Below are positions 2,283 to 6,418 of a stretch of DNA of 6,418 nucleotides, one piece after another; the stretch's first letter is position 1, and each line of letters opens with the position of its first letter. Under the pieces are notes generated by a model, which made no database searches, had not been told where the DNA came from, and was given only the letters and a program-made list of their open reading frames with translations. Source of the stretch: a bacterium (GTDB lineage Bacteria > SM23-31 > JAUVVT01); the NCBI GenBank assembly GCA_030616165.1, contig JAUWXV010000213.1, positions 1 through 6,418 on the forward strand. The letters are read 5' to 3'. Position numbers and translations under genes: made by a program.

Positions 2283-3503
2283 TTAATCTATACGTTTGTA
2301 ATCTGGATGTTCTTTTAGAACAGGCATCCGGTTTACAATCCAGCGAAAGGCGAGAACGGCAGTAACTATAATAGTAACAGAAATTAGCAGTTCCTTCCAA
2401 CCAGGATAATTCCTTTCATCAAGATTCCAGTTAAATGTAATAATGGTAACGTTAATTCTGTTAATAATAATTCCAATAATAGTGATAATAGATGTAAATC
2501 TTATAAGACTTACAGATTTTTTTCGAACTCCAAATAAGAAAAGAAAGCATGGTAAAAGTACAAAAACAAAGATTTCAACTAAAAACCAGTATCCATAAGG
2601 TGTATTAAGAAGATTCCAGTTATGCCCGTGGGCGATTCCTATTATCTTTAGACCAAAATATGTAAAAAGAACAACAGAAGCGGCTTTACCAAGGCTGATT
2701 GTAAGTTCCCCAAGATGTTCTTTAAAGTTATAGTCAATTTTGTCCTTAAAGAAGCGGATTGAGAGTATGCTCATCAAAATTACCATTGAAATCCCGGATG
2801 CAATGCTTGAAATAAAGAAAAATACAGGTAAAAATGGAGAATACCAAAGGGGATGAAGTTTTCCGGGTGCAATAAGAAAAAGCCCACCTAAGGCTGACTG
2901 GTGAAGAACTGCAAGGGTTATGCCCATAATAGTTAAACCAATGGCAAATTTTTCTACCCAGTTTCGCAGTCTCTTCATATTAAGCCATTCTAATATTGCA
3001 GGGGAAAATTCTAAAAACTGCGTTAAAAGGTAGAGTGAAACAAGCCATCCTACCAAAAACATAACAGAAGTAACACCGAATGAATAAAACATAGGATAAG
3101 GCAATCTCCAGGGACGACCGAGGTCAATTAAAAGTGCCACAACAACAGTAAAATATCCAATAAAAGCAGAAAGGATTGCAGCTCGAACAAAAGGATAGTA
3201 CCTCTTCATTCTAAATATATATACCGCTGAACAAATAGTATATCCTCCAGCCGCAAGGGCTTCAACTGACAGAACATTGAAACCAATTAAGGAACTCCAG
3301 GGAGTATCGTTTGAAGCATCACCTAATGAACCTATCCCCTTTATATATCGAATCAACACGAGTGGAATTGCTATAAGAATCAGAATTCCTGCTGCGATAT
3401 TAAACGGGGTAATAAGTGTTTTTACATATTCACGTAAACTCATCCCCATAAATAGTTTCTCTATTAAAAAAGATTTTGCTCCTTTATTATTCACTTCATT
3501 CAT
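2283..3503 (-). CDS. NrfD/HmcC/HybB-family integral membrane subunit of a redox complex
   Basis: This 406-residue protein with about ten transmembrane helices belongs to the NrfD (PsrC/HybB/HmcC) family, which passes electrons between a periplasmic iron-sulfur subunit and membrane quinone. Supporting signatures are the LAAGGYT stretch (residues 83-89), IDLGRPWR in the TM3 region (126-133), VLHQSALGGLFL (199-210) and KLHPLWYSPFLPVFFF (215-230). The last two are characteristic of the HybB/HmcC branch. The position usually written GFD reads GFN here (N76). The start is ATG at 3503-3501, preceded by AGGAG with 7-nt spacing inside the end of the iron-sulfur gene; only one base separates the two genes, so they are probably translationally coupled. 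It is the last gene of the four-gene operon. The family assignment is firm. The choice of HmcC/NhcC over other NrfD types rests on the motif details and the operon partners. Confidence 0.93.
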   Translation of the reverse strand: MNEVNNKGAKSFLIEKLFMGMSLREYVKTLITPFNIAAGILILIAIPLVLIRYIKGIGSLGDASNDTPWSSLIGFNVLSVEALAAGGYTICSAVYIFRMKRYYPFVRAAILSAFIGYFTVVVALLIDLGRPWRLPYPMFYSFGVTSVMFLVGWLVSLYLLTQFLEFSPAILEWLNMKRLRNWVEKFAIGLTIMGITLAVLHQSALGGLFLIAPGKLHPLWYSPFLPVFFFISSIASGISMVILMSILSIRFFKDKIDYNFKEHLGELTISLGKAASVVLFTYFGLKIIGIAHGHNWNLLNTPYGYWFLVEIFVFVLLPCFLFLFGVRKKSVSLIRFTSIITIIGIIINRINVTIITFNWNLDERNYPGWKELLISVTIIVTAVLAFRWIVNRMPVLKEHPDYKRID

Positions 3504-3504
3504 A

Positions 3505-4413
3505 TTAAGACTCCTTTTGCTCAGATTTTTCAGAATTCTGTTCTCTGTTTTTCGTGAAAGCGCGAATCCCTGCTAATAGGGCAGGCCCGATTATCATTAC
3601 AAGTGGTACTGCTGAAAGAAAGCCTCTGGTTAATTCCGGGGATGGCTTTATTCCAAGGTTCATATCGAAACCAAGTTGCTCGAAAGGAACTCCGGAAATA
3701 TACATCCAACTTGTTCCACCTACTTCATGCTCACCATAGATGTGGTCGATATACTTTTCAGGATTTTTTCTGATTCTCTCCGTTGCAAATTCGATTAATT
3801 GACTTCTCTTGCCAAATGTTATGGCTTCAACAGGGCAAATTTCAGCACACGCTGGAATACCACCCTTTTTAATTCTAACATCATAACAAAAATCACATTT
3901 CTTAATCGCGGGGCTTAATGGATCATCAAACTCATATGCAGGAATATAAAATGGACACGCAATCATACAATAACGACATCCTATACATACATCTTCATTA
4001 TATATTACTGCCCCTTCCGGAGTTTTTTTGAGCGCACCAACCAGACATGCTGAAACACAAGAAGGTTCGTCGCAATGATTGCATTGCACCTTACGATAAA
4101 CCGGTTCTTCTTCATTATCTGTATTGGTATATCGATTAACAACCGTTAAAAATTTATCATCAGGTCTTCTTATTTTTTCAAATACAGATTCATCCTCTAA
4201 AGGTTTTTTATGCGGCGGTAAATTGTGTGCCTCCTTACATGCCTTCTCACAAAGCCTGCATCCATTACAAAGTATTAAATCTGTCAGCATTCCCAGGCGG
4301 TCAGGATAACCACTGAGATCCTCCGAAGCAAAAACTTTCTCAGAACTGCCTATAATGCCTGATACTCCAATTGCAGAAAGAGATTTTAGGAAGTCCCTTC
4401 GGTCAATTTTCAT
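3505..4413 (-). CDS. Tat-exported four-cluster ferredoxin subunit (HmcB/HybA-like)
   Basis: The 302-residue electron-transfer subunit begins with a twin-arginine signal, DRRDFLKS (residues 4-11), then a hydrophobic stretch and a plausible cleavage site after VFA (27-29). It therefore acts in the periplasm. Sixteen cysteines in four groups would bind four [4Fe-4S] clusters: C49/52/55/59, C111/114/119/123, C143/146/149/153 and C173/176/189/193. The segment GGTSWMYISGVPFEQLG (232-248) is typical of HybA/HmcB/formate dehydrogenase beta-type subunits. A hydrophobic helix at about 265-285, followed by a charged tail, would anchor it in the membrane, as in HmcB. It would take electrons from, or pass them to, the multihaem cytochrome encoded upstream, and connect to the NrfD-like subunit encoded one base downstream. 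AGGAGG lies 12 nt before the ATG, across an A-rich spacer. Confidence 0.93.
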   Translation of the reverse strand: MKIDRRDFLKSLSAIGVSGIIGSSEKVFASEDLSGYPDRLGMLTDLILCNGCRLCEKACKEAHNLPPHKKPLEDESVFEKIRRPDDKFLTVVNRYTNTDNEEEPVYRKVQCNHCDEPSCVSACLVGALKKTPEGAVIYNEDVCIGCRYCMIACPFYIPAYEFDDPLSPAIKKCDFCYDVRIKKGGIPACAEICPVEAITFGKRSQLIEFATERIRKNPEKYIDHIYGEHEVGGTSWMYISGVPFEQLGFDMNLGIKPSPELTRGFLSAVPLVMIIGPALLAGIRAFTKNREQNSEKSEQKES

Positions 4414-4425
4414 ATTTTTTTTTAA

Positions 4426-4431
4426 CCTCCT
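4426..4431 (-). promoter_or_regulatory. Shine-Dalgarno AGGAGG with long poly-A spacer before the iron-sulfur gene
   Basis: A perfect AGGAGG precedes the ATG at 4413 by 12 nt, longer than the usual 5-9. The spacer contains a run of nine A. It confirms the start codon. Changes in the length of the A-run could tune translation of this subunit. Confidence 0.7.
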
Positions 4432-4498
4432 ACGATTTTAAGCGGAATAAAAAATCTCAAAATCATAAATTAATATTTATTACTATCTATTACTGCAA

Positions 4499-4520
4499 AT
4501 TATTTCTTATCGGAAATAAT
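4499..4520 (-). other. Intercistronic hairpin after the cytochrome gene
   Basis: ATTATTTC and GAAATAAT form a perfect 8-bp stem around a 6-nt loop, 22 nt beyond the cytochrome stop codon and inside the 129-nt gap before the iron-sulfur gene. No U-run follows on the minus-strand transcript, so it is more likely an mRNA-stability or processing element, or a weak attenuator, than a full terminator. Such a hairpin could help set cytochrome expression apart from that of the two downstream subunits. Confidence 0.4.
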
Positions 4521-4542
4521 GTTTGTTTATCATCTTATATTT

Positions 4543-5169
4543 TTATTCAATTTTCTTATGACAATCAACACAGACTACAGGACCGATGTCGTATTCTTTG
4601 TGGCATCCCATACATTTGCGATGGAATGCACCTTTTAAACCCGGCTTTTCAATATTTTCATAGTCAAGAGTAGCATCATGGCATGTTATACATGCAGGAG
4701 TCACATGTTCAGGATCATGATGGTGGTGACAAGTTTTGCAATCACCAATAATTTCAAAATGTATTAAATGAGGAAATGTTACCGGGTCAAATATTTTTGA
4801 GTCTTTATTAAAAATAAAATACTCAGTCATTTTTTGGGGCTGAACAGTAGTCTTAGGTACGTTAAAATACGGATCTTCATGGCAGATATCACATGAAGGT
4901 GTTTCAATTTCAGGACTAATACGGTGACATAATTTGCAATCCTCCATAATATCAAAATGTATTTTATGAGGATATCCTACCGGTTCAGTTAATTCTGAGC
5001 CTTTGTTAAAAATTAATCCCTCAGGTTTTTCCCCATTTTGAGTATTAGTTTTTGTCGCTAAAGGATTCGCTTCATTATTCTTTTCATCTTCGCCAACCAA
5101 TGAAACTGCAAGTATAAAAATTGCAAATATAAATATGATTATTCCCTGAATTATTTTCATAATTATCAT
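4543..5169 (-). CDS. Hexahaem c-type cytochrome (class III/c3-like), membrane-anchored or exported
   Basis: The 208-residue protein has six CXXCH haem-attachment motifs: C78-H82, C93-H97, C144-H148, C160-H164, C186-H190 and C200-H204. Residues 5-25 are hydrophobic and give an export signal or N-terminal anchor; I see no clear signal-peptidase site or lipobox. Residues about 119-208 look like a complete tetrahaem cytochrome c3 unit, with candidate distal histidines H134, H137 and H183. Residues 53-98 repeat the first half of that unit and carry the other two haems. It is the likely electron-entry subunit of the operon's complex, in the place of HmcA (16 haems) or NhcA (9). The first ATG (5169) overlaps the upstream stop as ATGA but lies only 2 nt from AAGGAG (5172-5177). 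ATG at 5160, the fourth residue, has 11-nt spacing and is an equally good start. Confidence 0.92.
   Translation of the reverse strand: MIIMKIIQGIIIFIFAIFILAVSLVGEDEKNNEANPLATKTNTQNGEKPEGLIFNKGSELTEPVGYPHKIHFDIMEDCKLCHRISPEIETPSCDICHEDPYFNVPKTTVQPQKMTEYFIFNKDSKIFDPVTFPHLIHFEIIGDCKTCHHHHDPEHVTPACITCHDATLDYENIEKPGLKGAFHRKCMGCHKEYDIGPVVCVDCHKKIE
4675..4815 (-). repeat. Internal repeat, copy 2, within the cytochrome gene
   Basis: This encodes residues 119-165 and is the second copy of a two-haem module. It shares about 25 of 45 positions with copy 1, including the start IFNK, the PH.IHF block and both CXXCH motifs. The copies are about 198 bp apart and remain recognisably alike in DNA, for example around 4753-4776 versus 4950-4973. 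This copy has extra histidines after its first haem motif (CKTCHHHH). Confidence 0.8.
4876..5013 (-). repeat. Internal repeat, copy 1, within the cytochrome gene
   Basis: This encodes residues 53-98, the first copy of the duplicated two-haem module (IFNKGSEL to CDICHE). Unlike copy 2 it is not followed by a second pair of haem motifs, so it amounts to half of a c3 domain placed before a whole one. Confidence 0.8.
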
Positions 5170-5309
5170 ATCTCCTTACTGTTAGCATCTTTTGAAGTTT
5201 TGTTAGTATTAAATAATTTCCAAAAAGCAATAAAAACCAGAAGAAATATGACAGCAATAATATATTCTATGCCTCTTGTTATTGATAAAAATTCTAAAAG
5301 AGTGTGCAT
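5166..5309 (-). CDS. 47-aa single-helix membrane protein, HmcD/NhcD-like subunit
   Basis: This small gene starts MHTLLEFLSITRGIEY, has one transmembrane helix at about residues 14-33 (IEYIIAVIFLLVFIAFWKLF) and ends in a polar tail (NTNKTSKDANSKEI). AAAGGGG (5314-5320) lies 4 nt before the ATG. Its TGA overlaps the first ATG of the cytochrome gene (ATGA), indicating translational coupling and that the frame is real. A tiny protein with an N-terminal EFL..T.G.EY motif and one helix is characteristic of HmcD/NhcD, a subunit of the Hmc-type transmembrane redox complexes. The neighbouring cytochrome, iron-sulfur and NrfD-like genes support this. In Desulfovibrio hmc the D gene follows hmcC, whereas here it is first. 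The resemblance is from memory of the family, and its biochemical role is not known. Confidence 0.8.
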   Translation of the reverse strand: MHTLLEFLSITRGIEYIIAVIFLLVFIAFWKLFNTNKTSKDANSKEI

Positions 5310-5537: not shown

Positions 5538-6418
5538 TCAACGATATTTTTGTCGAACATTTTTTATCTCTGGTTTATAGATACAGTATGGTTCTTCGGC
5601 AAGGTAATCTCCAGTAACTGCATATGCTCTTGCTCTGCAGCCTCCACAAACTTTTCTGTATTCACAGTAACCACATCTCCCATGATATTTGTTGATATCT
5701 TGCATATCAAGGAAAACAGGGGAAGTTTCCCATATTTTCTTAAAGTTATAATTTCCTTTTCTAACATCGCCACATTCTACATCAAGAAATCCGCAAATCT
5801 GGACTTTCCCTGTATGGGAGATAAAAGCAAAAGACTGCCCCCCCATACATCCCTTTGTCATCGCATCAAGACCATGTGTTTCTACAGAAACTTTTTCACC
5901 TTTTTCCTTTTCTTTTTGACGAAATATTCTGTAATAATGAGGAGCACAGGTGGGTTTCAACTTTAAATTAGACTTTTCTCTATTTTCATAAATCCAGCTT
6001 AAAATTTTTTCATACTCATTGGGTGAAATCTCCTCATCCTTCATATCTTTTGCCCTTCCTGTGGGAACCAGAAGAAATGGATGAAAACTGACAGCACCGA
6101 GTTTAATAGCAAGTTCAAATATTTTATCAATTTCCTTATAATTATGTTTTGTGATTGTTGTGTTGACCTGAAATTCAAGCCCTGCTTTTTTTGCATTCTC
6201 TGCTGCTTTTAAAACCATATCAAATGCCCCATCCACTCTTCTAAAGGAGTCATGGTTTTCTTTTGTAGCACCATCAAGACTCAAACTTATTCTTTTTATT
6301 CCAGAATTGAGCATCTTTTTAGCGTTCTCTTCGGTACCACGCATTCCACAGGGTGCAATCACCATCTTTTATCCTTGTTTTGTTCCATCTTCTATAATAT
6401 CAAATATAGCATCTCGCT
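5538..6418 (-). pseudogene. ahbD: AhbD/NirJ-type radical SAM-SPASM haem synthase, interrupted by an in-frame stop; 5' end outside window
   Basis: AhbD converts Fe-coproporphyrin III to haem b by radical SAM oxidative decarboxylation, the last step of the sirohaem-dependent pathway of sulfate reducers and archaea. Counting from the Met at 6365, the protein shows SLSLDG (27-32), NTTITKHN (68-75), PTCAPHYYR (138-146), DAMTKGCMGG (167-176), VQICG (188-192) and the SPASM end CGYCEYRKVCGGCRARA (231-247). These are hallmarks of AhbD/NirJ proteins. The frame also codes for family-like sequence upstream, DAIFDIIEDGTKQG (within 6372-6415), but a TAA at 6369-6371 separates the two, where relatives carry Leu (TTA would need one base change). 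The CxxxCxxC SAM cluster lies off the right edge. The 275-residue piece after the stop (5538-6365) would lack it and could not do the reaction alone. AAGGA 6 nt before ATG 6365 would allow internal initiation. A sequencing error at 6370 is possible. AhbD is favoured over NirJ or AhbC by motif match from memory. Confidence 0.8.

Follow-up and report, generated by a model that had tools for sequence, protein, structure and literature searches.

The best described relatives of the locus analysed here are transmembrane redox complexes built around a multihaem cytochrome c and an iron–sulfur subunit. The Hmc complex (HmcABCDEF) of Desulfovibrio and its relatives has a 16-haem class III cytochrome, the subunits HmcB, HmcC and HmcD, and HmcE and HmcF in addition; the Nhc complex (NhcABCD) has a nine-haem cytochrome and is devoid of HmcE/F; the Ohc complex (ohcBAC) combines a periplasmic eight-haem cytochrome and an iron–sulfur subunit with OhcC, a membrane subunit described as haem b-containing (PMC4641369); and the Qrc complex (QrcABCD) associates a quinone-reactive subunit of the NrfD fold with an iron–sulfur partner, the molybdopterin-like subunit QrcB and the six-haem cytochrome QrcA. 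Similarly, the Geobacter complex Cbc4 (CbcSTU), which has a c-type cytochrome, an iron–sulfur and an NrfD-type subunit, has been proposed to be a menaquinol:ferricytochrome c oxidoreductase (PMC11434368). The direction in which Hmc-type modules work is itself an open question (PMC6303296). Here, we describe a four-gene locus of this kind in a 6,418-nucleotide stretch of bacterial DNA (contig JAUWXV010000213.1, hereafter the window), which is an entire contig (C269) of a metagenome-assembled genome (MAG), so that our statements on gene content cover that contig. Four open reading frames (ORFs) on its minus strand (2283–5309) encode, in order, a one-helix HmcD-like subunit (D), a c-type cytochrome, an iron–sulfur subunit exported by twin-arginine translocation (Tat) and an NrfD-like membrane subunit. 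An earlier note, made from the sequence alone, had recognised this subunit set and six haems in the cytochrome; we confirmed all four ORFs and counted six CXXCH motifs. As in that note, neither HmcE/F nor a catalytic (QrcB-like) subunit was found, and the window likewise lacks any hydrogenase, Qrc-type or molybdopterin subunit. What the note overlooked, and what forms the distinctive feature of the locus, is the loss of a carboxylate at the quinone site of the NrfD-like subunit. We propose, with slightly more confidence than doubt, that these genes encode a four-subunit Hmc-like complex acting as a menaquinol:periplasmic cytochrome c oxidoreductase.

Relatives were collected with an alignment of seven NrfD sequences, which was used to scan genome contigs; the best 80 matches to the window NrfD were kept, a sampling biased towards the clade of the window. 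The Nhc loci were retrieved separately, by searching the family to which G028, a genome carrying a 16-haem Hmc locus, belongs. In a tree of concatenated NrfD and iron–sulfur subunits, the window lies inside a clade of 30 rows (Shimodaira–Hasegawa-like approximate likelihood ratio test, SH-aLRT: 99), and a smaller, careful tree recovers a 23-row version of this clade (ultrafast bootstrap 100; SH-aLRT 98). In the latter tree, Hmc and Nhc form a separate clade (100/100), with the window outside; the phylogenetic placement proposed in the earlier note thus sets the locus apart. Among the sampled rows, the window is the deepest branch of its clade, both in the large tree and in a quick one. The other members of the clade are MAGs labelled Zixibacteria, Nitrospirota, Verrucomicrobia, Chloroflexota, Aminicenantes, Methanoperedens, Proteobacteria and Deltaproteobacteria, labels that may be wrong. 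An assignment to the Nhc/Ohc type, as made in the note, finds support on neither count, since Nhc nests inside Hmc, whereas the window does not, and since Ohc, with its b-type membrane subunit, does not share the subunit set of the window, in which this subunit is an NrfD protein. Within the 16-haem Hmc clade, the nine-haem Nhc rows nest in two places (L166, L167, L169 and L170; L172 and L173), which suggests two reductions of haem number.

The site residues listed for NhcC, QrcD and HybB (PMC8076601) were mapped onto the window NrfD (2283–3503, minus strand; 406 amino acids), the numbering being checked on the QrcD of G028, in which the numbers are lower by eight than the published ones at D70, Y110, D120, S138, E157 and H199. 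At the position of QrcD D70, HybB D58 and NhcC D68, an aspartate is present in all 39 Hmc/Nhc rows, in 21 of the 22 others, and in Qrc and HybB, whereas none of the 28 aligned rows of the clade has a carboxylate: 27 have a glycine and one, the window, an asparagine (Asn76; codon AAT at 3276–3278, minus strand). The alignment of residue 76 is little in doubt, given the motif around it, which reads IGFD in Hmc, IGFN in the window and GWG or similar in the clade. Phe75 and Ala82 of the window are as in Hmc. Two more residues of the NhcC site are replaced, Glu141 by L150 and Ser200 by A204, but most of the unnamed other rows are altered there as well, and neither change is specific to the clade. 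The residues D127, S146, Y117, Y158, E165, H201 and R349 are kept. Outside the clade, the NrfD of a Bacteroidia row (L115) has an asparagine at the quinone-site position too.

In relatives, this carboxylate has been mutated: QrcD D70A and D70H gave no growth on formate and no electron transfer to menaquinone, while HybB D58A was reported to lose menaquinone reduction, H2 evolution from glycerol being still possible (PMC13059093). Lacking this carboxylate, which QrcD cannot do without, the clade represents a natural counterpart of the laboratory mutation, and the loss, read together with the QrcD and HybB mutants, points to a quinol-oxidising direction. Quinol oxidation would take place on the periplasmic face of the membrane, within the NrfD-like subunit; the four clusters of the Tat-exported subunit would carry the electrons to the c3-type cytochrome, which would hand them on to soluble multihaem cytochromes and probably to an outer-membrane conduit. 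The 47-residue D helix would help to anchor the cytochrome. Such a reading fits the multihaem cytochromes found beside many clade members and the outer-membrane-type cytochromes of the host. The carboxylate loss would then predict direction from sequence for uncultured bacteria of several phyla and, if this is true, a single residue would tell quinol dehydrogenases and quinone reductases apart within this NrfD branch. The parts and the fold are already known, and the D-first clade with its altered quinone site is a variant of them; no description of the clade, its gene order or its quinone site was found in the open papers searched, a set outside which most subscription journals lie. We advance more tentatively, and as falling just short of an even bet, the broader claim that the D-first clade is an undescribed Hmc-like family of several phyla in which carboxylate loss fixes the quinol-oxidising direction, the window, with its intermediate site (Asn76, Phe75, Ala82), being the deepest branch known.

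Four points weigh against the quinol-oxidising proposal. The direction is read from mutants of relatives; most of the proton path from the N side is preserved, which is what a functional quinone reductase would show; the outer-membrane cytochrome cluster of the host lies on a different contig, alongside an iron–sulfur/NrfD pair of its own, so that a functional link to it is assumed; and AAT differs from GAT by one base in a MAG, where a sequencing error could mimic Asn76, although no other clade member has an aspartate at this position.

Among the alternatives, the one that survives best, though we consider it unlikely, is a cytochrome c:menaquinone reductase akin to Qrc or Nhc, which would use the c3-type cytochrome to bring electrons from periplasmic H2 or formate to the quinone pool and would draw its protons from the cytoplasm. 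QrcD has its nearest relatives in HmcC and HybB, both thought to be electrogenic (PMC6303296); moreover, the residues Y117, Y158, E165, H201 and R349 are retained, and so is the tyrosine Y148 of the iron–sulfur subunit, which sits between the cluster ligands Cys146 and Cys149 in the arrangement described for Y113 of QrcC. Nevertheless, neither the window nor its clade has the carboxylate shown to be indispensable in QrcD (PMC13059093). As for Qrc itself, QrcA likewise has six haems, but the window has no QrcB, and its proteins score far below the cut-offs of the QrcA (16.8 vs. 180 bits) and QrcD (67.7 vs. 570 bits) models. Nor does the host favour a periplasmic donor: the hydrogenase found belongs to the Vhu-like type (413 bits, below the cut-off of 800), a group located in the cytoplasm, and the membrane formate dehydrogenase found, on contig C53 (subunit of the formate dehydrogenase-N type, over cut-off), lies beside iron–sulfur and NrfD subunits of its own, the latter keeping IGFD. 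In this formate dehydrogenase locus (L040:9371-13892), the catalytic frame has an in-frame TGA, possibly a selenocysteine codon. We regard as improbable a reversible or otherwise alternative module, e.g., one using another quinone or another electron partner: of the five quinone-site residues of NhcC, three (D68, E141, S200) are changed in the window, so that its site may be tuned to another quinone or potential, but D127, S146 and the iron–sulfur tyrosine, all common to the wider family, are kept. Finally, a true Hmc or Nhc complex with a cytochrome shortened in the lineage of the window, already disfavoured, is very improbable, for even though the best curated models for the window are those of Hmc subunits, albeit below cut-off, and the C-terminal units in the solved structures of HmcA and NhcA match its c3 unit, the fully supported Hmc/Nhc clade does not include it, and all 39 Hmc/Nhc rows have D after NrfD and keep the aspartate.

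Regarding gene order, D was detected in 27 rows of the clade and lies upstream of the iron–sulfur and NrfD genes in 25 of them, window included (exceptions: L045 and L084), while it is downstream of NrfD in 39/39 Hmc/Nhc rows and last in the Nhc loci where both genes are present (L166, L167, L169, L170, L172, L173), as in the A-B-C-D order of Nhc itself. The D-first order on which the earlier note had remarked is therefore real but not peculiar to the locus; according to the neighbourhood survey that it proposed, the order is common in the clade, yet not unique to it, since D is also upstream in L043, L114 and L128. A close comparison is offered by four Zixibacteria loci of the same clade (L058, L064, L068, L070) with the order D, cytochrome, iron–sulfur, NrfD (in L070, D is unseen at the contig start), among which L058 shares more identity with the window than any other row (59% over the iron–sulfur and NrfD subunits). 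They differ from the window by eight haems arranged as two complete c3 units, by a glycine at the position of residue 76 and, in L058, L064 and L068, by a longer D with a GcvH-like domain. Cbc4, compared by description only, has no D subunit described. As for haem number, cytochromes adjoining the clade modules have four haems in Nitrospirota, eight in Zixibacteria and 10 to 13 in others, and since clade cytochromes range from four to 13 haems, six is neither minimal nor unusual. The suggestion of a "minimal or distinct member" thus stands for distinct (a clade separate from Hmc/Nhc) and falls for minimal (four-haem relatives), and haem number is a poor label for Hmc-type complexes. Further multihaem cytochromes adjoin many clade loci: in L082 (9307-14041) and other Nitrospirota loci, a 13-haem cytochrome follows the four-haem complex, and in L082 it is itself followed by a b561-type membrane protein, a sensor kinase and a response regulator.

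The cytochrome (4543–5169, minus strand; 208 amino acids, with a single hydrophobic segment, an N-terminal signal or anchor) matches the class III cytochrome model (56.5 bits; cut-off 22.9), whereas it remains far below the cut-offs of the HmcA (66.3 vs. 400 bits) and 9HemeCytC (62.6 vs. 640 bits) models. It consists of a two-haem half-unit (about residues 63–111; 4837–4983), with two CXXCH and two candidate distal histidines, and of a complete four-haem c3 unit (about residues 123–208; 4546–4803), in which all CXXCH and the distal histidines (H134, H137, H149, H183) are invariant across 13 aligned proteins. The half-unit is closest to the first half of the neighbouring c3 unit (29/60 residues, or 48% amino-acid identity; 106/147 aligned bases), codon-shuffled alignments scoring far lower, and it is less like either unit of the eight-haem Zixibacteria relatives than like its own neighbour. 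The likeliest origin, judging from these comparisons, would be a partial tandem duplication yielding four plus two haems. A truncated eight-haem protein is disfavoured because the half-unit is nearer its own neighbour, although the segment is short and concerted change possible. A search for the cytochrome in the sister genus (G001) and the rest of the phylum gave no match at a useful E-value, and its AlphaFold model, computed without haems, was poor (predicted local distance difference test, pLDDT: 52) and left unused.

With regard to the other subunits, the best curated models are HmcB (400.6 bits; cut-off 420), HmcC (459.6; 550) and HmcD (28.5; 34), all below cut-off. The HmcB/HybA-like iron–sulfur subunit (3505–4413, minus strand; 302 amino acids) has the Tat motif RRDFLK, four cluster motifs comprising 16 cysteines and, at the C-terminus, a hydrophobic segment, its transmembrane anchor. 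The HmcC-like membrane subunit matches PF03916 NrfD (90.4 bits); while a sequence search of the PDB with it gave no match, its AlphaFold model (predicted template modelling score, pTM: 0.80) has structural matches in ActC (Z 32), a subunit of alternative complex III, and in PsrC (Z 18). The stand-alone D subunit (5166–5309, minus strand; 47 amino acids) is a single transmembrane helix. A physical link between D and cytochrome is supported by their fusion in three loci (L077:6167-7003, L080:6159-6971, L127:6206-7039), in which the D helix is joined to a seven- or eight-haem cytochrome. In other loci, D is joined to a GcvH-like domain (L058:752-1429, L064:3392-4063, L045:6772-7467; PF01597 in L058 and L045), L058 and L064 having additional GcvH-like proteins beside it, and GcvH-like sequence resembling these PF01597 fusions occurs in other relatives, within and outside the clade; no paper naming GcvH and NrfD jointly was found in the open literature searched.

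The host genome is 3.74 Mb in size and about 90% complete. Since rpoB was not found in it, its affinity rests on the sister genus, whose rpoB groups the lineage with Calditrichota, Electryoneota and Bacteroidota (SH-aLRT 100). The earlier note had proposed a search for host markers. For dsrA, there was only a match far below cut-off (77.7 vs. 392.85), and by this marker the host is not a sulfate reducer; apart from the Vhu-like hydrogenase mentioned above, multihaem cytochromes were found on contig C56, and no COX1 (haem-copper oxidase) match was obtained in the host. C56 (L039:568-8713, L038:14164-18607) encodes an MtrC/MtrF-like eight-haem protein and cytochromes with six, nine and 14 haems, possibly an extracellular electron transfer conduit, and also carries the separate cytochrome, iron–sulfur and NrfD set.

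Within the window, the D and cytochrome genes overlap as ATGA, preceded by a Shine-Dalgarno-like AAGGAG. An AhbD-like radical SAM gene (388 bits; cut-off 500) lies upstream on the same strand, and genes for an NRAMP-type transporter and a FeoB-type GTPase lie downstream of the NrfD gene. The sister genus has an 81%-identical nrfD fragment, interrupted by a contig end, with the same downstream order (judged by ORF lengths and a GTPase match). Upstream of the radical SAM ORF, an in-frame TAA is present at 6369–6371 (minus strand), after which the frame runs on (RDAIFDIIEDGTKQG*KMVIAPCG); lying about 50 bases from the contig end, it reflects either a broken gene or an assembly error.

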